Positions 172 to 13,222 of a DNA stretch of 39,306 nucleotides are shown piece after piece. The stretch is from Clostridia bacterium. GTDB taxonomy: Bacteria > Bacillota > Clostridia > RGIG6154. Positions within the stretch are counted from its first letter, which is position 1. Every line of letters starts with the position of its first letter. Made by a program: the position numbers and the translations under genes. The stretch is taken from assembly GCA_017409875.1 (NCBI GenBank), contig JAFQRW010000007.1:1-39306 (forward strand), written 5' to 3'. Below the pieces are notes generated by a model that worked only from the letters and a program-made list of their open reading frames with translations, was not told where the DNA came from and made no database searches.

Positions 172-2829
172 CTATCTTTCAATCAATCCGTATTTGAATT
201 TAATTCTTTCAAGCTTGTCTATCATAGGCTCGGATATGAACCAAAGGAAAAAGGCGGTTGAAAGTCCATGAATTAAATCAAATGGTACGCCTCTGATATA
301 AGCATAGATTAACATTGCTTTTGTGGGACTTGCCTGATACATTATTACGGATGCAGGGTTCATAATTCCGCCGTATATCACAAGTGTTGCAATAAATCCG
401 AAGATGCAAAGAGATGCTTTTGTTTTACGAAGAAATCCCTTTTTGAAAAATATCCCTGCGATAAAGCCGATAATGCCAAAAGCAAACATCTGCCACGGTG
501 TCCACGGACCTTGTCCAAAGAAAAAGTTTGAAACAAATCCGCTGACTGCACCTACCAAAAATCCCGTTTCTCCGCCAAAAGTTACGCCTGCAATAATTAC
601 AAGTGCAACAACGGGCTTGAACTGCGGAAGCATAAAGAATGCAGCCTTGCCTGCAACAGCAATAGCACATAGTACACTTATCACAATAAGCTCTCTTGCT
701 TTTGGCTTTCTTTGCTCAAAGATCATACAAAATGGTATCATAGTTTCGAGTATGATGAGTAAACTTATAAAATAATACTTTCTGTAACCTAAGAAGAAAA
801 CACCGACATAAATAGTAAGTGGTATTAAGAGCAGTATCAAAAATGTTGCCATAAGAGTTCGCTTTGTCAGTTTTCTGTCTGACTTTGGAACTTGCACTAT
901 TTTTATTTCAATGTCTTTTTGGGGAAAGAAGTTAAAACAAGCACCAAACAATGCTATTATCATAGCTATCTGATAAACGACGGTTTTTGAAAAACTTGTT
1001 AATATATTTATATCTGTTTTAAGCGGCAGATACATTAAAACAAAAAGCAAAGTTAATATACTGCCCCAAACAATTCTTGAGGGAGTAAGTTTTTTTTCTT
1101 TTTGTAGCTTGCTTTCCTTTTCAATCTTACGCCAATCAACAGTTCTTGATGTTTTTTCTCTCTTTTTTATACTGCCGCCACAAGCAAGGATAATATCTTC
1201 TGCTAAAACTGCATCAGAAAGGCAAGTTCTTGCCATACGGTTTGCGGATGTGGTATAGAAATTCTTACCTTTGAAAAACTCTCTCGGTGTGTCAACCGAT
1301 GTAATGTTTCCGTCAAAAACAAGAGCGCATCTGTCGGCGTGCTTTGCGCAAAATTCTATATCGTGAGATACCATAATAATTGTTACGCCGTTTGCTTTTA
1401 AATCCAGAAGAATATCTGCAAATTCTTCTTTAAAATGCGCATCCATTCCTTTTGTTGGTTCGTCAAGAAGAAGTATTTCAGGCTCCATAAGAAGTATTTT
1501 GGCAAGAGCTGCACGTTGCTGTTCACCGCCTGACAAATCGTAAGGGTGGCTTTCTAAAATATTTTCTATTCTGCAAAGTGCAGATATATTTTGTACTTTT
1601 TTTTCTTTTTCTGCCTCAGAGAGTTTCTTGCCAGAAAGTATTTCCATTAAATCAAGATAAACTGTTTTCTTTACAAACACACTCTGCGGATTTTGGGGAA
1701 GAACACCGAGAAGTCCGTCATACAAATTTTTGATTTTAGAAATACTCCGTCCTTTAATCTTTACATCTCCTCTGTACGGAGTGTTAAGACCTGATATAAG
1801 TGAAAGTGCAGTTGTCTTTCCGGTGCCGTTACCGCCAACCAAACAAAAGAGTTCGCCTTTGCTTACACTTATGTTTAATCCTTTCACTACATCAGGCAAA
1901 TCCTTTTTGTATCTGAACCATACATCTTTAATTTCAATAACGGTATCGGTATTTTCTTTTAAGTCATCACCGGGAATGACATTGGGATTCAAAATGTTTT
2001 CCTTTGAATATTCTTTTAGCCATATTCTGCCCTCACGAACTGTCAGAGGGCAAGGCAAAGCATTTACCACTTCACCGTGAACTCTCATAGGGGTTGGGAG
2101 CGCCTTATACATATCGTGATTTTGTGCCTTCAAAATTTTACCGACTTCTTTTGGGGTTTCATCGGCAATAATTTTTCCGTCATCCATAACAATAACTCTG
2201 TCTGCCATTGGAAAAGCATCTTCTAAACGATGCTCGGTGAGAATAATGGTCACCCCAAGCTCACGATTTATTTTTTCGAGAGTTTTAAAAAACTCGCCTG
2301 CGGCGATTGGATCAAGCTGACTTGTCGGCTCGTCCAATATAAGAACAGACGGCTGCATAGCCATAACAGACGCAAGATTTAACAACTGTTTTTGACCGCC
2401 CGAAAGCTCTGTTACATTTTTATAAAACCATGTCTGGATGCCAAAAAAAGATGCCATTTCGGATACTTTAATTCTTATTTCGGATTGTTTGTATCCAAGG
2501 CTCTCTAAACCAAATGCAAGCTCGTGCCATACCTTGTCGGTTACAATCTGATTGTCAGGATTTTGCATTACAAATCCAATGTCCGATGCTTGCTGCCTTA
2601 AATCATAGTCTGAAAGGGGTTTGTCATTAAAATAAATAGTTCCCTTTTTTTCTCCAAATGGTGAAAGTGATGATTTCAAAAGTCTTAAAAGCGTAGTCTT
2701 TCCGCAACCTGATTTACCGCAAAGTAAAACGAACTCACCTTGATTTACTATAAGGTTTATATCTTCAAGTGCTTGGTCGCATCTGTTCGGATAACTAAAA
2801 CTCAAATTTTTGATGCTTATGCTTTCCAT
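172..2829 (-). CDS. Fused ECF transporter: two ATPases plus membrane (S-like) domain
   Basis: An 885-residue fusion of parts that are usually separate. Residues 1-245 and 296-525 are ABC ATPase domains: Walker A at about 38-46 (GKSGCGKTT) and 332-340 (GGNGTGKTT), signatures LSGGQKQ (142) and LSGGEQQR (432), Walker B LILDEPT and LLLDEPT. These correspond to EcfA and EcfA'. From residue 585 the protein is membranous: about four helices to 705, then a segment (712-870) with Gly-rich helices around GGETGFLVGA that resembles an ECF substrate-binding S component. The start is set at 2829, where GGGGGGTGAG precedes the ATG; it overlaps the ecfT stop by 13 bases, so the two are probably translationally coupled. 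As the last gene of a cobalamin-riboswitch operon, its substrate is inferred to be a corrinoid. The S-component assignment is moderate; the ATPase assignment is secure. Confidence 0.85.
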   Translation of the reverse strand: MESISIKNLSFSYPNRCDQALEDINLIVNQGEFVLLCGKSGCGKTTLLRLLKSSLSPFGEKKGTIYFNDKPLSDYDLRQQASDIGFVMQNPDNQIVTDKVWHELAFGLESLGYKQSEIRIKVSEMASFFGIQTWFYKNVTELSGGQKQLLNLASVMAMQPSVLILDEPTSQLDPIAAGEFFKTLEKINRELGVTIILTEHRLEDAFPMADRVIVMDDGKIIADETPKEVGKILKAQNHDMYKALPTPMRVHGEVVNALPCPLTVREGRIWLKEYSKENILNPNVIPGDDLKENTDTVIEIKDVWFRYKKDLPDVVKGLNISVSKGELFCLVGGNGTGKTTALSLISGLNTPYRGDVKIKGRSISKIKNLYDGLLGVLPQNPQSVFVKKTVYLDLMEILSGKKLSEAEKEKKVQNISALCRIENILESHPYDLSGGEQQRAALAKILLMEPEILLLDEPTKGMDAHFKEEFADILLDLKANGVTIIMVSHDIEFCAKHADRCALVFDGNITSVDTPREFFKGKNFYTTSANRMARTCLSDAVLAEDIILACGGSIKKREKTSRTVDWRKIEKESKLQKEKKLTPSRIVWGSILTLLFVLMYLPLKTDINILTSFSKTVVYQIAMIIALFGACFNFFPQKDIEIKIVQVPKSDRKLTKRTLMATFLILLLIPLTIYVGVFFLGYRKYYFISLLIILETMIPFCMIFEQRKPKARELIVISVLCAIAVAGKAAFFMLPQFKPVVALVIIAGVTFGGETGFLVGAVSGFVSNFFFGQGPWTPWQMFAFGIIGFIAGIFFKKGFLRKTKASLCIFGFIATLVIYGGIMNPASVIMYQASPTKAMLIYAYIRGVPFDLIHGLSTAFFLWFISEPMIDKLERIKFKYGLIER

Positions 2830-3689
2830 TTTCTCACCCCCCACAACTCAATTATTATTGGATATATACAAACAAGAAGATATGCTGCGAATACGCTTAT
2901 ACTAAATAGTGAAATCTCTGCCGGCTTTATAGCAGGGAAATAGCGAAAATACATTCCTGAGCACAAGTTTCCGACAAGTGTATATAGCCCTGACATCAAA
3001 ATGGCTAAAAGTGCTTTTTTATCTCTCTTATCAAAAGTAAATATTGAAAAGTGCGTTCTTCCTGGGATTCCGTATCCACGGGATTTCATACTGTCGGCTG
3101 TTTCGATTGCATTTTCTAAAGACCAGGTTGTCATAATAGAAAGGATATTAAGACCACTCTTTGCTCGTTTTATAATACTTCCGTTACTTATATCTTTTCC
3201 CATACACCTTTGGGCGTTTGTTACCACTTTTAACTGTGCCGAAAACCTTGGAACAAACCGAAGCGTCATAGAGATTACAAGCGACACCCCCGGAATGATT
3301 TTCCCGAACAGGCAGATAAACTTATCACTTGTCATTATTTCGTTATAGCACGAAAACCAGCAGATAACGCTGACAATCATAACAGCCGCCGCAAGCCCGT
3401 AAACAATCGATTCAAGAGTAACAGGATTGTCATTTGGCAGATAAAAGAGTATTGTTACGCCTTCGTGATTAAAGGCAGGGTTTATAAGTGCCATTGTGAT
3501 AATCATTGGCAGCATATATATTAAGTTGTTTTTTATTGCCTTTTTGCCTTTTAGCATCACCGAGTATGCAAAACTGCATAGCAGCGATATTAAAAGACAC
3601 ACAGGATGCATAAAAAGGCAAGAAAACCCGATAACAAATATAAAATATATGAAATTAACAAGCGGATGAAAATTTTTAAATTCCGACAT
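2817..3689 (-). CDS. ecfT: ECF transporter transmembrane protein EcfT
   Basis: About 290 residues, the usual size for EcfT, the membrane scaffold that couples the two ATPases to the substrate-binding subunit. It has several hydrophobic helices near the N-terminus and at the C-terminus. The cytosolic coupling region carries the family's two short Arg motifs, here A-x-x-SRG-like stretches around SMKSRGYGIPGR and the helix containing AKSGLNILSIM. I place the start at 3689 (MSEFKNF), where GGGAGAT lies six bases upstream; that start is inside the end of the preceding DUF4430 gene (14-base overlap), implying translational coupling. The longer upstream frame has no ribosome binding site. It sits between the surface binding proteins and the fused ATPase/S protein, completing an ECF module. 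Confidence 0.85.
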   Translation of the reverse strand: MSEFKNFHPLVNFIYFIFVIGFSCLFMHPVCLLISLLCSFAYSVMLKGKKAIKNNLIYMLPMIITMALINPAFNHEGVTILFYLPNDNPVTLESIVYGLAAAVMIVSVICWFSCYNEIMTSDKFICLFGKIIPGVSLVISMTLRFVPRFSAQLKVVTNAQRCMGKDISNGSIIKRAKSGLNILSIMTTWSLENAIETADSMKSRGYGIPGRTHFSIFTFDKRDKKALLAILMSGLYTLVGNLCSGMYFRYFPAIKPAEISLFSISVFAAYLLVCIYPIIIELWGVRKWKA

Positions 3690-4350
3690 AACTATCTCCC
3701 AAGTCTTTTCCCATATTGCATGTATATGAGATTTCAATGCAGTCTCCGGGTTTAAGCTCATATAATGAGCAACCTGCGCTCGGACTAACTCCGTTTACTT
3801 TATACAACCACCCTGAAAGCTCTCCGCAATCAAATTCATAAAGGTTTGCGATTCCCTTAATATATGCACTTTCATAAATTGGGGTTATCTCAAATTCAAA
3901 ATGAATTTTATTTTGCTTTGTTTCTCTTAAGACAACGTTAAAAACACTTTCTCCATCATAAAAAACTACATCTTTTTTGGAATAGATAATCCCGTTTGCA
4001 GGAACAATGCTCCTTTTTTCTTCTTTCATCATACTAAGGTTATTAAGAATTGTATCACATCTTATGCTAAGTGTGCAAGTTAGATTTTCATTTTCTTTGG
4101 TTGCTTTTTCTGCACTTTCAGGCAAAACATCTGTCGTGGGTGGCAAAAGCTCTGTAGAAGCTTCATCAGTTTTTTTGTTTATCTCAATATTTTGAGATAA
4201 ATCATTATTGTCAGAACTTGTTTCCTGATTTAAAGTGTCCGCTTTTTGTACAGGCAATTTTGCAATATCCGGAGCAGAAACCATTTCCCAGACAAACACA
4301 CTTAAAAGCACTAAGATAACACAAATTAAAGCAATTACTTTGTTTTTCAT
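3676..4350 (-). CDS. Membrane-anchored transcobalamin C-terminal-like (DUF4430) protein
   Basis: 224 residues. Residues 6-24 form a signal anchor, followed by a Ser/Thr/Glu/Asn-rich linker of about 70 residues, then a DUF4430-type domain (about 92-220). The domain shows an opening beta strand (CTLSIRCDTIL), the GES-V repeat-like strand, the hallmark SGWLYKVNG, and the closing L-PGD-IE-SYT strand. In vertebrate intrinsic factor and transcobalamin, this fold is the C-terminal domain that closes over cobalamin. The gene lies 5 bases after the SLH-anchored protein with the same domain and overlaps ecfT. I infer that it sits on the outer face of the membrane and passes corrinoid to the ECF transporter. 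Binding of cobalamin is inference; the domain assignment is good. Confidence 0.75.
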   Translation of the reverse strand: MKNKVIALICVILVLLSVFVWEMVSAPDIAKLPVQKADTLNQETSSDNNDLSQNIEINKKTDEASTELLPPTTDVLPESAEKATKENENLTCTLSIRCDTILNNLSMMKEEKRSIVPANGIIYSKKDVVFYDGESVFNVVLRETKQNKIHFEFEITPIYESAYIKGIANLYEFDCGELSGWLYKVNGVSPSAGCSLYELKPGDCIEISYTCNMGKDLGDSYVGI

Positions 4351-4355
4351 TTTAT

Positions 4356-6566
4356 CTATATAAGCTTTGAAATTACCAGCATACTGTAAATAAGCTGTGC
4401 AATTTCACCACGGCATACCTTAATTGACGGCTGGATTTTAAGGTCATCTTCCCAAAGATTGTTTTTATAGCAAAATGCAAGAGCGTCAGTTGCCCATTTA
4501 GAAGATGTTGTATAATCAGAAAATCCTGACAAAATATTGCGATAGTTTGTTATTTTTGTATCAAGACCGCAAAGCGATGCTGCACGAAAAGCCATAACAG
4601 CAGCCTCTTCTTTTGTGATAAGTCCATCGGGGTTAAATTCTTTGTCAGACACTCCCTTTATAATGCCGTATGCATACGCAGTATTTACATAATCAAAAAA
4701 CCATTCATCTGATGATATATCTGTAAATATTTTTCCGTCTTTAATAGGCAGACACAAGCCGTTTACAATTATTGTTGCAAATTCTGCTCTGGTCATAAGT
4801 CCGTCAGGCTCAAATTTTATATTGTCTTTTCCACTAATAATTCCTCTTTGAGCAAGAGCTTCAATGGCAGATTGATTTTTGTGTCCTTTAACGTCAGCAA
4901 AAGTTTTTGATTTGTCTGTAATTTCACGCTTTTTAATGTCGGGATTTTTGTTTTCTAAGCCCCACTGTTGTTCGCTTTTGTTGGAACTTCCCGTGGATGA
5001 AGGGGAGTAGCTTTGAGAGGTTCTTTCTAAAGTATAATCATCTGTATAAAACCAAACAATAGTTTGATTGTTGGAAAGATATGTTTGATCGCTTCCTTTG
5101 TCAGAAAATGCACCGTCTACAGTAAACATCCACCCTGAATTACTTCCGTGATCGAACTCTTTTATGTTGTTTATTGACGATATGTAGCCGTTGTTTTCGA
5201 CATAAGCTGTATTGTTAGAATTAAGTGCAGTAGTTAGTGCCTTTAAAACACTCTGGCCTTTTTTAATTGTAACAGTTTTGCTTACCAAAGGCTTATATAA
5301 ATCCGAATTGTGCCTGTAGGTGAAAGAGTTTTGACATTCACTTTCATTATGAACCATAACTTTTACTTTTACATTTATGTTGTTATCAGAACCTCCAAAG
5401 TGTTGCTTTGGAGACAAAGTAACAGAAACTGTTTTTGGGATATGATTTTGAGCTTCTTCAGGCGAAATTATAACAATTCCGCTGTTAGATTGGTATACTG
5501 CATGCGAAACAGAATAATTATATGTTCCTGCAGGCAGGTGGTATTTAAATGAATCTACTTGTGATACACCTTCTATATTTACCACAGCATCAGCAGGCGT
5601 TACATCAAAAGTGACAGGGGCATATTCCGCCAATGAGGCATGGGCCTCGTTATACGGATTATCAGCAAAATCATAAATTCTTGTGCCATCTGTAAGTAAT
5701 GTAGACAAAAGTCCTCTAAAGCCTTGCTCGGTTGAAAAAGAATTATAACTTGGCTCAAAACCGTCGTTATTTTCAGTTGCCACCGACATAAGTCCGTCAA
5801 ACAAGTCTTTGCCGTTGTTTGTTATACTTGTTGAATCAATACCTAGCGCAGAAAATGCTGCCATTGCAAGTCCGTGAGATGCTGCGTTGCTGATAAGTCC
5901 TGTTTCATCCTGAAACGCAGTAATAATAGGAATAGTTTCGTCAACAGCAGCTTTAACCAAAGCGTTTGAATTATAATATGGCGCCAAGGATAGCAGCATA
6001 GGGGTTGCAGCATCAGTTCCCCACGTTGTGCTTTGCCATGCAGCTTTTGTTTCAAGAGCTGTTGAAATCAAATAATCCATCTGTTGGTTTGTTGCATAGT
6101 CTGTGCCTTGCTGCAATGCTAAAATAACATAAGGTAGTGTGTACTCATTTGTAACAGATGCATCTTTGCTGTCTACCAGAGTGGTAAGCTTGTTTACTAC
6201 ATCAATTTTAGTAAGGTTGGCGGTGTTGACATTTTTGGCATCATACCCCAATGCTCTTAAAGCAATAATTGATTTTGCAAGAGCCGAAGGAGTTGTTGCA
6301 GCATCTGCTTCAGCAATTATTTTGTCAAGACAGTCTTGCTTTATAACAGGTGTAATCATACTCTTGTGATATACTTGCTCATACACCGTCATATCAGACA
6401 CAAACCACATCATGTTGGAATCATTAACGAGATTTTCACCTGAATACTTTTGGGCAATGTTGTGAATAATTCCTTCTTGAATTTCAGCAGCGCTTATCGG
6501 ACATAAACAACAGCCTAAAATAAGCATTACGCTTAAAATGATTGATAGAATTCTTTTTGTTTGCAT
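4356..6566 (-). CDS. SLH-anchored intrinsic-factor/transcobalamin-like surface protein
   Basis: 736 residues, exported. Order of parts: signal peptide (1-27; processing near SAAE, though a Cys at 19 could also suggest a lipoprotein); an all-helical region (about 30-315) with repeats like prenyltransferase/squalene-cyclase alpha/alpha barrels (for example the GLISNAASHGLAMAAF stretch at 223); a PEGA-like beta segment (318-388, with LPAGTYNYSV); a DUF4430 domain (396-512, hallmark SGWMFTVDG at 477); a Ser-rich linker; and three SLH repeats (555-605, 614-664, 681-732) that bind secondary cell-wall polymer. Helical barrel followed by this C-terminal domain is the arrangement of vertebrate intrinsic factor and transcobalamin. 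It is the first gene after a cobalamin riboswitch and terminator, with the ATG preceded by AAAGGAG. Inferred role: capture of corrinoids at the cell surface. Confidence 0.75.
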   Translation of the reverse strand: MQTKRILSIILSVMLILGCCLCPISAAEIQEGIIHNIAQKYSGENLVNDSNMMWFVSDMTVYEQVYHKSMITPVIKQDCLDKIIAEADAATTPSALAKSIIALRALGYDAKNVNTANLTKIDVVNKLTTLVDSKDASVTNEYTLPYVILALQQGTDYATNQQMDYLISTALETKAAWQSTTWGTDAATPMLLSLAPYYNSNALVKAAVDETIPIITAFQDETGLISNAASHGLAMAAFSALGIDSTSITNNGKDLFDGLMSVATENNDGFEPSYNSFSTEQGFRGLLSTLLTDGTRIYDFADNPYNEAHASLAEYAPVTFDVTPADAVVNIEGVSQVDSFKYHLPAGTYNYSVSHAVYQSNSGIVIISPEEAQNHIPKTVSVTLSPKQHFGGSDNNINVKVKVMVHNESECQNSFTYRHNSDLYKPLVSKTVTIKKGQSVLKALTTALNSNNTAYVENNGYISSINNIKEFDHGSNSGWMFTVDGAFSDKGSDQTYLSNNQTIVWFYTDDYTLERTSQSYSPSSTGSSNKSEQQWGLENKNPDIKKREITDKSKTFADVKGHKNQSAIEALAQRGIISGKDNIKFEPDGLMTRAEFATIIVNGLCLPIKDGKIFTDISSDEWFFDYVNTAYAYGIIKGVSDKEFNPDGLITKEEAAVMAFRAASLCGLDTKITNYRNILSGFSDYTTSSKWATDALAFCYKNNLWEDDLKIQPSIKVCRGEIAQLIYSMLVISKLI

Positions 6567-6600: not shown

Positions 6601-6640
6601 AAAAAACTGCGGCAAATTTTTTATAAAAATTTACCACAGC
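6601..6640 (-). terminator. Riboswitch-controlled terminator
   Basis: On the minus strand CTGTGGTAAATTTTT pairs with the arm ending in AAATTTGCCGCAG (6607-6640) and is followed by TTTTTT (6601-6606). It lies between the cobalamin aptamer and the first gene, so it fits the expression platform of a transcription-attenuating riboswitch. The 3' arm TTGCCGC can alternatively pair with GCGGCAA (complement at 6590-6596) just downstream, which would disrupt the terminator. Confidence 0.75.
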
Positions 6641-6764
6641 TGAGTTTTCCTGTGACCAATCACAATTCAGATGAGAAAATCAGACAAACTCCGACGGATG
6701 CACTAAAAAAGCAAGCCTAAAATACCTCACGTGAAAAAGCTACCCCTATGCAAATGAGCACTTA

Positions 6765-6985
6765 CGGAATAACATCAAAGCAGGTCTTGTGACTTACACC
6801 ATATAGACAGATTCGTCCGCATTTTTATATCCTGCCTTCTCAGTTTCCCAATGACTATCTTTCGATAACGGACATAAAAACTTTGATGCACACACCGACA
6901 GTTCTCGCAGGGGATTCTCACCCCATTCCCTTTCCACCGATTATGCCTTGCTTAAGAGCTTTTGCGACATAATCAACACTTTGTG
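6765..6985 (-). promoter_or_regulatory. Cobalamin (adenosylcobalamin) riboswitch aptamer
   Basis: The minus strand carries the conserved cobalamin-riboswitch core. A GGTGGAAAGGGAA segment is followed by GGGGTGAGAATCCCC (about 6908-6932), and the B12-box-like GTCACAAGACCTGC lies near 6780-6794. Flanking GCATCAAAG and CTTTGATG can pair across the aptamer. It precedes a terminator and a transport operon. Boundaries are approximate. Effector identity is established for the family; the exact corrinoid preference cannot be read here. Confidence 0.9.
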
Positions 6986-7010
6986 TGAATGTATTAAATT
7001 TTACTTTTTA

Positions 7011-7113: not shown

Positions 7114-7396
7114 ATATTAAATGCGTTTGAGCAGGAACAAGTAAGTTTGGAAGGAACCTTTGAGAGAGTTGCCGGATGGTGCGAGGCAATGGGGATATCC
7201 ATACCGAATACATCTTGCGAGCAGTGCACCGAACAAAGTTTAGTTTTAAGTAGGCTGCAACGGGAGTTCCCGTTATAGAACTAAGGTATGTAAGTACCTG
7301 ATAAGGCTGCTACCGTGAGATAGCGGCGAACTGAGGTGGTACCACGGGATAAGTTATCTCGTCCTCTGTATCTAATAAAGATGCAGAGGATTTTTT
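7114..7396 (+). promoter_or_regulatory. T-box leader, probable tyrosine specifier (UAC)
   Basis: The T-box sequence GAGGTGGTACCACGGG lies at 7333-7348 and is followed by a terminator: TCCTCTGTATCT (7362-7373) pairs with AGATGCAGAGGA (7379-7390), then six T. Stem I has the typical distal part (TTGCC, GGATGGTGCGA, GGCAA). The specifier loop is bounded by CAAG/CTTG helices; the codon in the position used in the known glyQS leader, followed by A, is TAC at 7209-7211. This predicts sensing of uncharged tRNA-Tyr, so the gene is transcribed when tyrosine is scarce. The T-box call is firm; the specifier is read by analogy. Confidence 0.9.
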
Positions 7397-7432: not shown

Positions 7433-8959
7433 ATGACAAACGCACAACTTTACACAATCATTGCACTTTGTATTTATGGATTTATAATGGCTTTGATTGG
7501 TTGTATAAGTTACGGAAAATCAAAAACACTTGACAAGTTTCTTATCGGCGGTAGAAATATCGGCGCATGGGCAACTGCATTTGCTTATGGTACTACATAT
7601 TTTTCAGCAGTAGTGTTTGTAGGTTATGCTGGGCAACATGGTTGGAACATTGGTCTTGGGAGTATTTGGATTGGCATAGGGAACACTATTTTAGGTTGCC
7701 TTCTTTCGTGGCTGTTGTTTGCAAACAGAACAAGAAAGATGACAAAAAAACTTGGCGCAAAAACAATGCCTGATTATTTTGAAAAGCGTTACTCTTCAAA
7801 AGGTATGAAGATTCTTGCAGCAGTTATAATCTTTGTATTCTTGGTTCCTTATTCGGCAGCTGTATACAAAGGGCTTGGGTCTTTGTTTAGTGCAGTATTC
7901 CCCGGAGTTGAAACATGGGTATGGATGCTTATCATTGCTTGTCTTACAGCGATATATCTTGTTGCAGGCGGATATGTTGCAACAGCATATACAGACCTTA
8001 TTCAGGGAATCATCATGATTGTTGGTGTTATATGCCTTGTTGTGGTAGTTTTAGGACACGATGCAGTTGGCGGACTTTCAGGTCTTGTAACAAATCTTGC
8101 AGCTATATCGGGCGATGGAAAGCAACTTGCAAATATTTTTGGTGGTTCATCTTTTAAATTCCTTTGCTTTAACATTATGCTCACAAGCTTCGGCACATGG
8201 GGACTTCCGCAAATGATTGGTAAGTTCTATGCAATCAAAGATACAGCGGCAATTAAGCGTGGCACAATTATTTCTACTATCTTTTGTATTGTTATTGGCT
8301 GTGGTGCATATCTTATCGGCTCAACATCAAGACTTGTTTTAGGCGGCGTTCTTCCTGAAGGCGGTGTTGACTCTGTAATTCCCACACTTCTTATGGAAGT
8401 TTTAGGGGGAGGAACACTTGGAATTATCCTTTTGGCTATTATTATGATTCTACTTCTTTCAGCATCAATGTCAACTTTAGGGGCAGTTGTTTTAACTTCT
8501 GCTTCAGCTGTTGCGGTTGACCTTATCCCTGCTGTAAGGAAAAAGAAAACAAATCAGGAAACACAGATGCTTCTTACAAGAATTCTTTGTCTTGTATTTG
8601 TTGCTTGTTCGTTTATTTTTGCAATACAAAAAATCGCAATCATTGTAAGTCTTATGTCATTTTCCTGGGGAGTTGTATCCGGTTGCTTTATCGGACCTTA
8701 CATTTGGGGACTTTTCTCAAAAAAGATTACAAAAATCGGTGCTTACGCAGGTATATTATCAGGACTTTTAACTGTGGGCATTTCAACACTGGTTATAACA
8801 ATAAATTCCGGATTTGCAGATGCAGCTGCAAAATCTCCTGAAATGGGGGTTGCTGCAATGGCAGTTTCTCTTATTGTTGTGCCTGTTTTAAGTGCATTTA
8901 CAAAGAACAAAGACAGCAAAAAAGTAGAAAAAATCTTTGCTTGCTACAATGAGGAATAA
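7433..8959 (+). CDS. Sodium:solute symporter (SSS family), probable tyrosine/amino-acid importer
   Basis: 508 residues with about 13 hydrophobic helices, the size and pattern of the SSS/PutP family. Family-like stretches include FLIGGRNIGAWATAFAYGTT near residue 35 and the Gly-rich, Ser-rich helix LLSASMSTLGAVVLTSAS around 340, in the region that binds Na+ in this fold. The start ATG follows AAAGGAGG by 7 bases. It is alone between its own T-box leader and a bidirectional terminator. The T-box specifier suggests tyrosine as substrate, which motif reading of the protein cannot confirm; SSS members also carry proline, pantothenate, sugars and others. It would use the Na+ gradient, consistent with the Na+-type ATP synthase nearby. 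Confidence 0.85.
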   Translation: MTNAQLYTIIALCIYGFIMALIGCISYGKSKTLDKFLIGGRNIGAWATAFAYGTTYFSAVVFVGYAGQHGWNIGLGSIWIGIGNTILGCLLSWLLFANRTRKMTKKLGAKTMPDYFEKRYSSKGMKILAAVIIFVFLVPYSAAVYKGLGSLFSAVFPGVETWVWMLIIACLTAIYLVAGGYVATAYTDLIQGIIMIVGVICLVVVVLGHDAVGGLSGLVTNLAAISGDGKQLANIFGGSSFKFLCFNIMLTSFGTWGLPQMIGKFYAIKDTAAIKRGTIISTIFCIVIGCGAYLIGSTSRLVLGGVLPEGGVDSVIPTLLMEVLGGGTLGIILLAIIMILLLSASMSTLGAVVLTSASAVAVDLIPAVRKKKTNQETQMLLTRILCLVFVACSFIFAIQKIAIIVSLMSFSWGVVSGCFIGPYIWGLFSKKITKIGAYAGILSGLLTVGISTLVITINSGFADAAAKSPEMGVAAMAVSLIVVPVLSAFTKNKDSKKVEKIFACYNEE

Positions 8960-9046: not shown

Positions 9047-11506
9047 CTATTTTTTAAGTCCCAAAATCTCTGTAGATTCATCACGCATTTTATACTTTAA
9101 GATTTTGCCTGCTGCATTCATTGGAAATTCATTTACAAACAAGAAATATCTGGGAACCTTGTGGCGGGCAATAGATGCATTACCAAATTCACGCATTTCA
9201 TTTTCGTCTGATGTTTCACCTTTATGCAATATAATCCACGCGCAACATTCTTCGCCATATCTTTCATCGGGAACGCCGACTACCTGAACATCACGCACTT
9301 TGGGATTTGTTAAATAAAATTCCTCAATTTCGCGTGGGTAAAGGTTTTCGCCGCCACGAATAATCATATCTTTAAGTCTTCCGGTTACTTTATAGTATCC
9401 GTCCGGAGTACGGCAACAAATATCACCTGAATGAAGCCATCCGTCTGCGTCGATTGCCTGAGCGGTTGCCTCAGGCATTTTATAGTAACCCTTCATGATA
9501 TTAAACCCACGTGCAACAAATTCGCCGCTTTCACCATCAGGTAATTCTTCACCTGTTTCAGGGTCAATAACCTTACATTCAACACCCGGGAAAGGACTTC
9601 CAACCGTCTCAACACGATGGTCAATATCTTCGTTTACTTCACCCATGGTACATCCGGGGGAAGCTTCTGTCTGACCATAAACAGAAATGATTTCACGCAT
9701 ATTCATTTCATCTGCCGCGCGGCGCATCAAGTCGGCAGGGCAGTTAGCTCCAGCCATAATACCTGTTCTCATATACGAAAAATCTGTTTTTGCAAAGTCA
9801 GGATGATTAAACATCGCAATAAACATTGTGGGAACTCCGTTAAAACAAGTTATATGCTCATCGTTAACGCATGCAAGCGATGACTTTGGCGAAAAGTATG
9901 GTATAGGACAAAGTGTTCCGCCGTGAGTCATCGTTGATGTCATTGAAAGAACCATGCCAAAGCAATGGAACATAGGAACCTGAATCATCATACGGTCTGC
10001 TGTTGACAGGTCCATTCTGTCACCGATAGTTTTTCCGTTATTTACAATATTGCGATGAGTAAGCATAACACCTTTAGGGAAACCCGTTGTACCTGATGTG
10101 TATTGCATATTACAAACATCATCAGGCTTAACCAATGATGCACGTCTTCTTACTTCTTCACGTGGAACGAGCGATGAACGTGAAAGCATTTGTTCCCAGG
10201 TAAGACAGCCTTCCATTGAAAATCCTACCGTTACAACATTTCTGAGGAACGGCAGATTTTTAGAATACAGCAGTTTGCCGGGTTCAAGATTTTTAAGTTC
10301 AGGGCAAAGCTCCATAATTATTTCTTTGTAGTTAATGTCCTTACAATACTCAATCATAACGAGGGTATGCGTATCTGATTGTTTTAAAAGATATTCAATT
10401 TCATGAATTTTATAGGCTGTATTAACAGTTACAAGTACAGCGCCTATTTTGGTTGTTGCCCAGAAAGTGATAAACCACTCAGGAACATTTGTTGCCCACA
10501 CAGCAACATGGTCGCCAGCTTTTACACCCATCGAGATAAGAGCTGCTGCACATTCATCAACATCACGCCTGAATTGCTCATAAGTTCTTGTGTAATCGAG
10601 CGTTGGATATTTAAAAGCATACTGGTCAGGATATTTTTCTGCCATTTTATCAAGAACGTCAGAAAATGTGGCATCAATAACATCGTATTTTTTCCACACA
10701 AAAGTTCCTGTTTTTGCTCTGTTATAATACGCACGGTCAAAACTCTTCTTTTCACGTTTGAGTGATGAAATATAGTTAGTAAAATGGGTCAGAACAATAT
10801 CTGCATCATTGATATCTTCATTCCATGCCGCACAGATAAATCCGTCAAAATTAAGAGAAGAAAGAGCATTGATTAAATTTTCTACAGGAAGCTGTCCTTC
10901 GCCAATTAAAACGGTTTTTCCATCCTTCATATCACCAAGACGAACATACTTTATATATGCTCCGAGAGTTTTAATTGTTGTTTCTGCCGTTTCGCCGGCA
11001 CCGAAATAAGTGCCTCTGACATTCCAGGAAGCGCCAATTGCCGCAGATGAGAAAAAGTTAATAATATCAACAACTTTTTCTGTATTGGAAAGATAACCTA
11101 CAGTTTCAAATAGAATTCCTATATCAGCCTTTTCAGCGAGTTTTATCGCATCATAAAGCTTATCTTTTAATATATCAAACGATGTCTCTTCTTCAACACG
11201 CACTATAATGTTTTCAACACCTGAATTTGATGCCATAGTTACATATTTTGAAACAACATCTGCAGTAGTATCATCGCTTTCAATGGGATGAGGCATACGA
11301 AGTGCGGAAATCGCAAGATTTCTGTTTACAAGCTTTCTTTTTGCATCAGCGGTTTGTTCACGTCTCAATATGCTGTCGTGATGCTGACTGCGCATCTTTA
11401 TGGCATCGTATATCTCAAATCCTGCAAATCCGTAATCGTAAGCATAGCGGCACATTTCAAAAAAGGATGCACGGTTTACATTTTTAGTTGAAAATACAAT
11501 CTTCAT
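9047..11506 (-). CDS. Sugar-isomerase-like TIM barrel fused to acyl-CoA ligase
   Basis: 819 residues. Residues 1-250 resemble xylose-isomerase-like TIM barrels (sugar phosphate isomerase/epimerase), with one ligand-type Glu retained in LFETVGY (E134). Other usual metal ligands look replaced: W161 and R164 where D and H are expected, and R189 in YVRLGD. Residues 270-819 form a complete ANL-family AMP-forming ligase: P-loop YTSGTTGFPKG (468-478), YGQTEA (609-614), GWLHSGD (688-694), hinge GRLKDMIIRGGENLYPREIE (708-727) and catalytic Lys in NAAGK (800). It should adenylate a carboxylic acid and form its CoA thioester. The ATG at 11506 has GAGGAGG just upstream and starts one base after the stop of the preceding gene, so the two are co-translated under the leucine T-box. 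The acid substrate is unknown; a branched-chain or leucine-derived acid is a guess from context. Confidence 0.8.
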   Translation of the reverse strand: MKIVFSTKNVNRASFFEMCRYAYDYGFAGFEIYDAIKMRSQHHDSILRREQTADAKRKLVNRNLAISALRMPHPIESDDTTADVVSKYVTMASNSGVENIIVRVEEETSFDILKDKLYDAIKLAEKADIGILFETVGYLSNTEKVVDIINFFSSAAIGASWNVRGTYFGAGETAETTIKTLGAYIKYVRLGDMKDGKTVLIGEGQLPVENLINALSSLNFDGFICAAWNEDINDADIVLTHFTNYISSLKREKKSFDRAYYNRAKTGTFVWKKYDVIDATFSDVLDKMAEKYPDQYAFKYPTLDYTRTYEQFRRDVDECAAALISMGVKAGDHVAVWATNVPEWFITFWATTKIGAVLVTVNTAYKIHEIEYLLKQSDTHTLVMIEYCKDINYKEIIMELCPELKNLEPGKLLYSKNLPFLRNVVTVGFSMEGCLTWEQMLSRSSLVPREEVRRRASLVKPDDVCNMQYTSGTTGFPKGVMLTHRNIVNNGKTIGDRMDLSTADRMMIQVPMFHCFGMVLSMTSTMTHGGTLCPIPYFSPKSSLACVNDEHITCFNGVPTMFIAMFNHPDFAKTDFSYMRTGIMAGANCPADLMRRAADEMNMREIISVYGQTEASPGCTMGEVNEDIDHRVETVGSPFPGVECKVIDPETGEELPDGESGEFVARGFNIMKGYYKMPEATAQAIDADGWLHSGDICCRTPDGYYKVTGRLKDMIIRGGENLYPREIEEFYLTNPKVRDVQVVGVPDERYGEECCAWIILHKGETSDENEMREFGNASIARHKVPRYFLFVNEFPMNAAGKILKYKMRDESTEILGLKK

Positions 11507-11507
11507 T

Positions 11508-12899
11508 TTATGCCTCCTCAAAAACTATCTTGTTAAGAGCATTTATATAAGCTCTGATGCTTGCTGCAACTATGTCTGTAGAAATGCCGTTTCCGGAATA
11601 GAGCTTTCCATTATTACGAAGTCTTACAACAGCAGAACCTAATGCTTCTTTTCCTTCTGTTACTGAATGAACCTGAAAATCATCGAGTTCATAATGATGC
11701 CCTATACATTGCTCAATCGCACGGAATGCTGAATCAACAGGACCGTCGCCTGTGCTTACTCCACATATAATTTCATCGTTGCATCTTAATGTTACCTGAG
11801 ACATAGCATTTGTAAGATTGCTGCTATTGGTAGTGTAACTTTCAAGATGATATGTTGACGGTGCCTGCATAGCAGAGCTTGCAATTAATGCCTCCAGCTC
11901 TTTTGCACCAACTTCACCTTTCTTTTGTAATATCTGCATAAGTGCCTTGTGTACGTTTCCACAATCAGAATCTGAAAGATCGTAACCTAAAACATTGGCA
12001 GCTTGTGCAACCTGAGCGATTGTAGAGTCTGAATCAAGAAGAATTTTCTTCTTTTCACTCACCATATTTTCTGCTTCGTATGCCTGGTGGTTAATAGTTG
12101 CCAGCATATCGTCAATACTTGCATGGATTTTTGTATTATTAAGATTTGTTTCAGCACTAAGCTGTGCAGAGCAAGCATTCATTGCATCTGATATTTCACC
12201 GGTTAAAAGCACATCTTTGCCTGCCATAGCACATTTAAGACCGTCAGCGCCTTCCTTTACTGATGCAATAGCCGAAGCAACACCCATATTTATACGGTCA
12301 GAAACCTGAACATATACCAAAGCGTTTACCGATTCTTTTACCTTTTTTACTAAAGCTGCTATTTCTTCAGGGAGTGATACTCCTGCATCATCACAAATAG
12401 TAATGATGCCTGCACCATTTGCGATAGCTTCTTTAGCAGCGGAAATAAGAAAATCGGCATCTGCACGGGTTGCATCAAGTGCACAAAATTCTACATCGCA
12501 ACAAAGTTGTTTTGCTGCTTTGGTCAATTCGCCGATTTTTAATATCATTTTATCAGCTTTGATGTGATATGTATATTCCATCTGCACAGTAGAAACAGGC
12601 ACCTCAATCTGAAGACGAGGCTTTTTGGCATCTTTAACACATTCATAGGCTGCTGCAACATCTTGCGTGCTAAATCCTACAGGAATAGCTAAAGTAGCAT
12701 TTTGCACATTCTGCGCAATAGTTTTATAAATGATAGTGTCTTCGCGAATATTTTTTATAGGCGGAAGTTCAACTGCATCTGCGCCAAGTTTATCTGCACA
12801 AGCAGCAATAGCCGTTTTTTCACGGAATAGAAGCGCAACTTCACGATCAGCAGAAAGTTTTTTAAGCGTAATGTCAGCAGTGTTGATTTTTTTACTCAT
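11508..12899 (-). CDS. Isopropylmalate-synthase-like protein, catalytic site lost
   Basis: 463 residues. The C-terminal part (350-460) is a well-conserved LeuA dimerisation/allosteric domain: GDGPVDSAFRAIEQ at 384, SVTEGKEALG at 412, GNGISTDIVAASIRAYI at 436; in true isopropylmalate synthases it binds leucine. The N-terminal TIM barrel is recognisable (FCALDATRADADF at 138 matches the family's ExxxR-type strand) but the catalytic motifs are gone: the family's LRDGEQ is KLSADRE (14-20), and the metal-binding HxHND is QVSDR (198-202). It therefore should not catalyse the Claisen condensation. The frame is intact and controlled by a leucine T-box. The start at 12899 (MSKK) follows GAGAGGAG. Possible roles: leucine-binding regulator or partner of the downstream ligase, or a new activity. 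The family assignment is strong, the role unknown. Confidence 0.8.
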   Translation of the reverse strand: MSKKINTADITLKKLSADREVALLFREKTAIAACADKLGADAVELPPIKNIREDTIIYKTIAQNVQNATLAIPVGFSTQDVAAAYECVKDAKKPRLQIEVPVSTVQMEYTYHIKADKMILKIGELTKAAKQLCCDVEFCALDATRADADFLISAAKEAIANGAGIITICDDAGVSLPEEIAALVKKVKESVNALVYVQVSDRINMGVASAIASVKEGADGLKCAMAGKDVLLTGEISDAMNACSAQLSAETNLNNTKIHASIDDMLATINHQAYEAENMVSEKKKILLDSDSTIAQVAQAANVLGYDLSDSDCGNVHKALMQILQKKGEVGAKELEALIASSAMQAPSTYHLESYTTNSSNLTNAMSQVTLRCNDEIICGVSTGDGPVDSAFRAIEQCIGHHYELDDFQVHSVTEGKEALGSAVVRLRNNGKLYSGNGISTDIVAASIRAYINALNKIVFEEA

Positions 12900-12949
12900 T
12901 TTGAAAACTCCTCTCAAACTTCAATATATAAAATACGACTTTTAACAAC

Positions 12950-13222
12950 AAAAAAACGTTCCCATCTCTTTGTTGCTTCAAAGAGACGAAAACGCTAAAA
13001 TTTCAATGTTTCCGCGGTACCACTCTTCTTCATCCTTTTTGGATGCACTTTAGATGCAAACACATCTTAACTCTGTAACGGGAGTTCCCGTCTGCCCCTA
13101 CTAAAGTTCACGGCAGCCACTCCGCGGTGAGTTCTGCAAAGCTTTCCCAATGTCTTGCACCATCCGACATCTCTCTAAGGGCGAAAGTTTTTGCATACTA
13201 TTCCGCATCACAGCGTTTGAAA
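12950..13222 (-). promoter_or_regulatory. T-box leader, probable leucine specifier (CUC)
   Basis: On the minus strand AGAGTGGTACCGCGGAA (complement of 13010-13026) is a canonical T-box, followed by a terminator hairpin whose arms include TCTCTTTG and CAAAGAGA, ending in seven T (complement of 12950-12956). Stem I shows the typical GTCGGATGGTGCAAGAC distal part. The specifier loop is closed by GCGG/CCGC below and GCAAA/TTTGC above; within it AGAACTCA places codon CTC at 13131-13129, followed by the usual A. The 5' side carries the AGTA element. This predicts sensing of uncharged tRNA-Leu, matching the isopropylmalate-synthase-like gene downstream. Confidence 0.92.

Follow-up and report, generated by a model that had tools for sequence, protein, structure and literature searches.

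A four-gene operon in a Clostridia bacterium (JAFQRW010000007.1) opens with the gene for P0001, which with a probability of about 0.85 is homologous to the animal cobalamin carriers and acts as the outermost receptor in B12 uptake, with corrinoid binding predicted. In the AlphaFold2 models of P0001 and of a relative (L008), compared by Foldseek, a toroid is followed by a beta-grasp domain, which is the order found in transcobalamin (TC), haptocorrin (HC), and intrinsic factor (IF). The relationship to the animal proteins is supported as homology of both domains and not as a likeness of layout alone.

The operon, its riboswitch, and the B12 economy of the genome

The window (the whole stretch of DNA analysed, 39,306 nucleotides) carries P0001 as an ORF whose position had been given exactly in the earlier note; the strand, omitted there, is minus. 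The gene order is P0001, P0002, EcfT, and an EcfA-EcfA'-S fusion. The features of the operon and of P0001 are as follows.

6762..6997, minus: cobalamin riboswitch aptamer (RF00174; cmscan 39.1 bits, gathering score 31.5)
6605..6641, minus: terminator-like hairpin of 17 pairs with a T run, between the aptamer and the P0001 start codon
4356..6566, minus: P0001, transcobalamin/intrinsic-factor-like wall-anchored protein, 736 aa (ORF, Pfam, model)
6486..6566, minus: P0001 signal peptide, residues 1-27, SAA cleavage motif (read from sequence)
5631..6485, minus: P0001 alpha/alpha toroid, PF01122-like, residues 28-312 (Pfam, model, Foldseek, profile)
5403..5621, minus: P0001 PEGA/Ig-like spacer domain, residues ~316-388 (PEGA matches of relatives, alignment, beta strands of the model)
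5031..5384, minus: P0001 DUF4430 / transcobalamin C-terminal beta-grasp domain, residues 395-512 (Pfam core 437-508, Foldseek)
4359..4910, minus: P0001 SLH region, residues 553-736, wall anchor (two clear repeats, third divergent)
3676..4350, minus: P0002, membrane-anchored DUF4430 protein, 224 aa (starts 5 nt past the end of the P0001 gene)
2817..3761, minus: EcfT (CbiQ-type transmembrane subunit), 314 aa as listed (PF02361, E 5.6e-6)
172..2844, minus: EcfA-EcfA'-S fusion, 890 aa, S component ~605-890, CbrT-like (Pfam; PDB match 6fnp_A)

The claim that P0001 is under a cobalamin riboswitch is borne out. The aptamer scores above the RF00174 cut-off, lies 196 nt upstream of the P0001 start codon, and is the only cobalamin riboswitch in the whole genome. 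Because such a riboswitch is also found in 19 of the 22 related loci searched, the link between the two is beyond chance. The hairpin is located 3' of the aptamer, just before the ribosome site. A terminator-like hairpin in this position suggests transcription attenuation when B12 is bound, and it is the probable expression platform. Elsewhere in the window, a T-box leader (7117-7369, plus strand) is directly 5' of a sodium:solute symporter gene (7433-8959) and diverges from the B12 operon. On the minus strand (9047-11521) a xylose-isomerase-like TIM barrel (PF01261) is fused to an acyl-CoA synthetase (AMP-binding); the fusion, just downstream of a LeuA-like protein (11508-12917), is an unusual combination. 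The LeuA-like gene is itself under a T-box leader (12979-13220).

P0001 starts with an N-terminal signal peptide, MQTKRILSIILSVMLILGCCLCPISAA, as read from sequence here and in the earlier note, and Pfam finds its DUF4430 domain (PF14478, residues 437-508, E 8.6e-17). The SLH family (PF00395, E 3.6e-29) matches in two stretches. Three SLH repeats had been claimed; two of them pass the HMM thresholds, and the divergent third (~675-736) is presumed because relatives have three. The order of signal peptide, toroid, DUF4430, and SLH described earlier stands, except that it leaves out a PEGA/Ig-like domain (~316-388) between the toroid and DUF4430. PEGA matches are found in six of 12 relatives, and the domain is absent from others such as L008. 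The protein had also been called S-layer-tethered. The SLH anchor is present, but SLH domains usually bind wall polymer, and wall-tethered is therefore the fitting term. The genome has 45 SLH matches, so anchoring to the wall by SLH domains is normal for this organism.

P0002 carries a DUF4430 domain of its own (Pfam) in addition to a membrane segment at the N terminus, and searched alone it finds no meaningful match in the PDB. Where the sequence of a related locus reaches far enough, a gene of the P0002 type nearly always lies 3' of the carrier gene. The ECF transporter noticed earlier beside P0001 follows in the same operon. EcfT probably has its true start at M25. In the fusion protein, two ECF ATPases and the S component exist on one chain. 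The best PDB match of the S component is 6fnp_A (E 2.2e-7), followed by another S component, 4hzu_S (0.034). 6FNP is ECF-CbrT of Lactobacillus delbrueckii, which experimentally imports cobalamin and cobinamide (PMC5997447). The two systems share a similar S component and the ECF architecture. While both ATPases and the S component are fused here and accompanied by dedicated extracellular DUF4430 partners, CbrT functions without such partners in published assays (PMC5997447).

The genome (1.46 Mb) is 98% complete. It has a MetH-type gene with homocysteine-methyltransferase, pterin-binding, and B12-binding regions (read in L031). Searches of the genome gave no match to CbiD, to BtuR-type or PduO-type adenosyltransferase, or to a FecCD/BtuC-type permease. 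Judged by gene content, this resembles the gene set of a B12 auxotroph, having a B12-dependent enzyme and none of the synthesis and alternative-uptake genes searched. Because these uptake and synthesis families are absent, the P0001 operon is probably the sole B12 import route of the genome. The use of B12 may be limited to methylcobalamin, since a MetH-type gene is present and BtuR and PduO are without match. A third DUF4430 protein is also encoded in the genome (L003, 1498-1941; G000 contig C21:74598-74807). Its gene encodes a small putative lipoprotein and neighbours that of a channel-like membrane protein, with no cobalamin riboswitch nearby.

Probable kinship with the animal B12 carriers

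The AlphaFold2 model of P0001 residues 28-515 (mean pLDDT 84, pTM 0.63) shows a helical toroid, where the earlier note had read a barrel-like alpha/alpha region, together with a beta-grasp domain. When this model is compared to the PDB by Foldseek, the 15 matches at E<=0.001 all belong to transcobalamin, haptocorrin, or intrinsic factor, with E-values from 1.6e-10 (best) to 1.6e-8. The E-values then jump by about five orders of magnitude. Next, near 1e-3, come 3u7z, which is of the DUF4430 type, and the beta domain of human transcobalamin (5no0/5np4); other toroids are found at 2.3e-3 and weaker. The model of the PEGA-free relative L008 gives the same top 15 carriers (best 3kq4, E 1.1e-11). 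The comparison with transcobalamin proposed earlier thus places the carriers at the top of all fold matches for both proteins. Identity between P0001 and the animal carriers in the structural alignment is 11-15%. Neither model brings the two domains together into the clamp (rmsd of 22-25 A and TM of ~0.3-0.43 over the whole carrier); as single chains modelled without ligand, they do not decide on clamp closure or on the pocket between the domains named in the earlier note. After the beta-grasp helix, where the bacterial SLBB proteins described in 2007 have a beta-hairpin insert, the P0001 model has two short strands (ectodomain 428-431 and 434-438, as strand assignments only).

A single-sequence search of the PDB with P0001 returns significant E-values for SLH proteins alone, and profiles are therefore needed. 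PF01122, 'Eukaryotic cobalamin-binding protein', matches residues 92-242 of P0001 at 15.1 bits (E 0.011; 15-16 bits across searches) against a curated cut-off of 25. Among the profiles suggested for checking the protein, PF14478 is thus matched, PF01122 stays below its cut-off, and prenyltransferase-type profiles (Prenyltrans, SQHop_cyclase) have no Pfam match at E<=1. Relatives give a stronger signal. In 391 genomes of the same class, PF01122 has a match at E<=0.001 in seven and exceeds its cut-off in four. The homologues passing the cut-off are 38-47% identical to P0001 and score up to 51.7-55 bits; the 51.7-bit match sits in a toroid-DUF4430-SLH protein. The toroids of the PF01122-matching genomes are homologous to that of P0001 at E about 1e-70 or better. 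When a profile of the bacterial family (15 rows of P0001 relatives) is searched against all PDB sequences, it finds human TCN1 (haptocorrin) at E 6e-5, and squalene-hopene cyclases come next at 0.37.

In the alignment made with this profile, the TNYYQ motif of human TCN1 corresponds to T139-N140-E-Y142-T (TNEYT) of P0001. It is reported that TNYYQ of TCN1 forms hydrogen bonds to the corrin ring (PMC4350170). Good conservation of TNEYT among relatives is limited to the tyrosine. Two other toroid residues, D185 and Q281, do not vary across the P0001 family.

The earlier note had left it between a parallel to the animal carriers and a distant relationship. Real kinship is favoured because fold, family profile, and context (riboswitch, CbrT-like ECF transporter, auxotroph-like gene set) agree, and the PF01122-passing homologues support it as well. 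P0001 and the animal carriers share the toroid placed before the beta-grasp domain, the best fold match in the PDB, and a detectable similarity of toroid sequence. The animal proteins are soluble and endocytosed, whereas P0001 is anchored to the wall, and its PEGA domain has no animal counterpart.

Fused and split forms, and other readings of the operon

Related sequences are found in 78 of the 391 same-class genomes by profile search at E<=1e-15, some of them matching one domain only. Eight relatives (L095, L097-L100, L102-L104) have a wall protein of toroid and SLH that lacks DUF4430 (Pfam); this domain is retained on the membrane protein encoded after the wall toroid-SLH gene. A clamp on a single chain is therefore not essential to the system, and the two halves of the carrier may be joined in a single polypeptide or divided between the wall and the membrane protein. 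On the toroid tree, whose base is poorly resolved, the fused or split state needs three changes, at least two of which are forced by well-supported branches; the split form recurs in at least two places. In L094-L100 the toroid/DUF4430 pair is under a riboswitch and ECF genes are not found beside it, implying that the transporter is elsewhere or different.

The operon of some relatives includes a second toroid-SLH protein, which is missing from the window (L005 4132-5760, L006 10716-12344, L004 3035-4636, L009 10961-12418, L010 4434-6080). Of these, the L005 protein has matches to the squalene-hopene cyclase and Prenyltrans profiles. L096 has a toroid of the Prenyltrans type within the same polypeptide as the first toroid, DUF4430, and SLH.

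Alpha/alpha toroids are widespread, and the toroid of P0001 could be a generic one of the terpene-cyclase/prenyltransferase or complement-TED type, acting as an enzyme or protein-binding module, with the transcobalamin layout reached by convergence. The cyclase matches of the paralogous L005 protein, and of part of L096, point in this direction. For the P0001 family, however, the best-matching toroid family is PF01122, whose cut-off is passed by homologues in four genomes, the family profile prefers haptocorrin to cyclases, Foldseek separates the carriers from other toroids by about five orders, and the riboswitch and CbrT-like transporter share the operon. This makes a generic toroid unlikely. 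A terpene-cyclase toroid in particular was considered for P0001 and rejected, as Prenyltrans gives no match and carriers outrank cyclases in both profile and fold searches. Still more improbable is a role in metal capture, in which cobalt or another metal, rather than an intact corrinoid, would be bound by the DUF4430 and toroid proteins to feed an ECF importer of the CbiMNQO kind. Such a reading would draw on the title of 3u7z, 'putative metal binding protein', and on the assignment of EcfT to the CbiQ 'cobalt transport' family of Pfam. The S component resembles CbrT and not CbiM, however, the fold matches are corrinoid carriers, and without CbiD the import of cobalt for de novo corrin synthesis serves no evident purpose.

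More room is left for another ligand of the same class. What is captured may be another corrinoid or a precursor (cobinamide, pseudocobalamin, or other cobamide), with the set-up of two DUF4430 domains tuned for broad specificity, although this is the less probable choice. The riboswitch family responds to cobalamins generally, which speaks against it. In its favour, ECF-CbrT also imports cobinamide (PMC5997447), and human TCN1 and fish carriers, which bind cobinamide, share a TNYYQ-type motif (PMC4350170), whose T, N, and Y recur at the aligned positions in P0001. With these readings weighed, the preferred one is that P0001 is the homologue of the animal carriers. The corrinoid-capturing role put forward earlier fits its context of riboswitch, CbrT-like ECF transporter, and B12-auxotroph-like genes, the binding of cobalamin being predicted.

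Proposed uptake route and known systems

Capture, clamp closure, hand-over, and specificity are predicted from the observed gene order, domains, riboswitch, and transporter type. At low B12, the riboswitch would permit transcription of the operon. P0001 would be exported, and its SLH domains would retain it in the wall, where its toroid would hold the corrin and the DUF4430 domain of P0001 or of P0002 would close over it. The corrinoid would be handed from P0001 to membrane-anchored P0002 and then to the S component. The S component, EcfT, and the two fused ATPases would import it, mainly supplying the MetH-type methionine synthase. A bolder and quite tentative extension is a B12 relay of transcobalamin halves in two envelope layers. 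Here the toroid in the wall would capture the corrinoid, and the beta-grasp domains of the wall and membrane proteins would exchange over it en route to the ECF pump. The split relatives would then be split transcobalamins, and the single-chain carriers of animals would descend from the fused bacterial form.

Proteins of this kind were predicted by Burroughs, Balaji, Iyer, and Aravind in 2007. In low-GC Gram-positives they described bacterial proteins with a toroid and an SLBB domain as predicted B12 scavengers, encoded beside CbiO/CbiQ genes in operons that often include a second SLBB protein; the hosts usually lack key enzymes of B12 synthesis, and transfer of the bacterial toroid+SLBB form to animals was proposed (PMC1796856). 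P0001 belongs to this kind, and the B12-scavenger idea itself is not new. Like the TC-like SLBB clade of that study, P0001 is a secreted or surface protein with a toroid fused to a transcobalamin-type beta-grasp domain. Its operon has a CbiO-like ATPase, a CbiQ-like permease, and a second SLBB protein (P0002), and its host is without matches to CbiD, BtuR, and PduO-type proteins. Unlike in that description, an SLH anchor, a PEGA spacer, a cobalamin riboswitch, a CbrT-like S component, and split relatives are found here, and these are the additions over 2007; the 2007 text mentions neither riboswitches nor SLH domains (PMC1796856). Beyond the 2007 prediction, no experimental test or demonstrated ligand for a bacterial member was found in the literature, a weak negative with subscription papers mostly outside the search.

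A similar principle is known from BtuG of Bacteroides, a surface-exposed and riboswitch-associated B12 capture protein that feeds a transporter (PMC6143338). BtuG likewise captures B12 at the surface ahead of the transporter, but it is a seven-bladed beta-propeller outer-membrane lipoprotein and is not homologous to P0001. The P0001 operon could show B12 capture at the level of the wall by Gram-positive gut or rumen bacteria, in parallel to BtuG in Bacteroides. It is a compact test case, with one riboswitch, one candidate import route, and a single evident gene for a B12-dependent enzyme, of the MetH (methionine synthase) type. Human B12 nutrition depends centrally on intrinsic factor and transcobalamin, for which a bacterial origin was proposed in 2007. 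The operon would make the bacterial origin of the animal B12 carriers directly testable.
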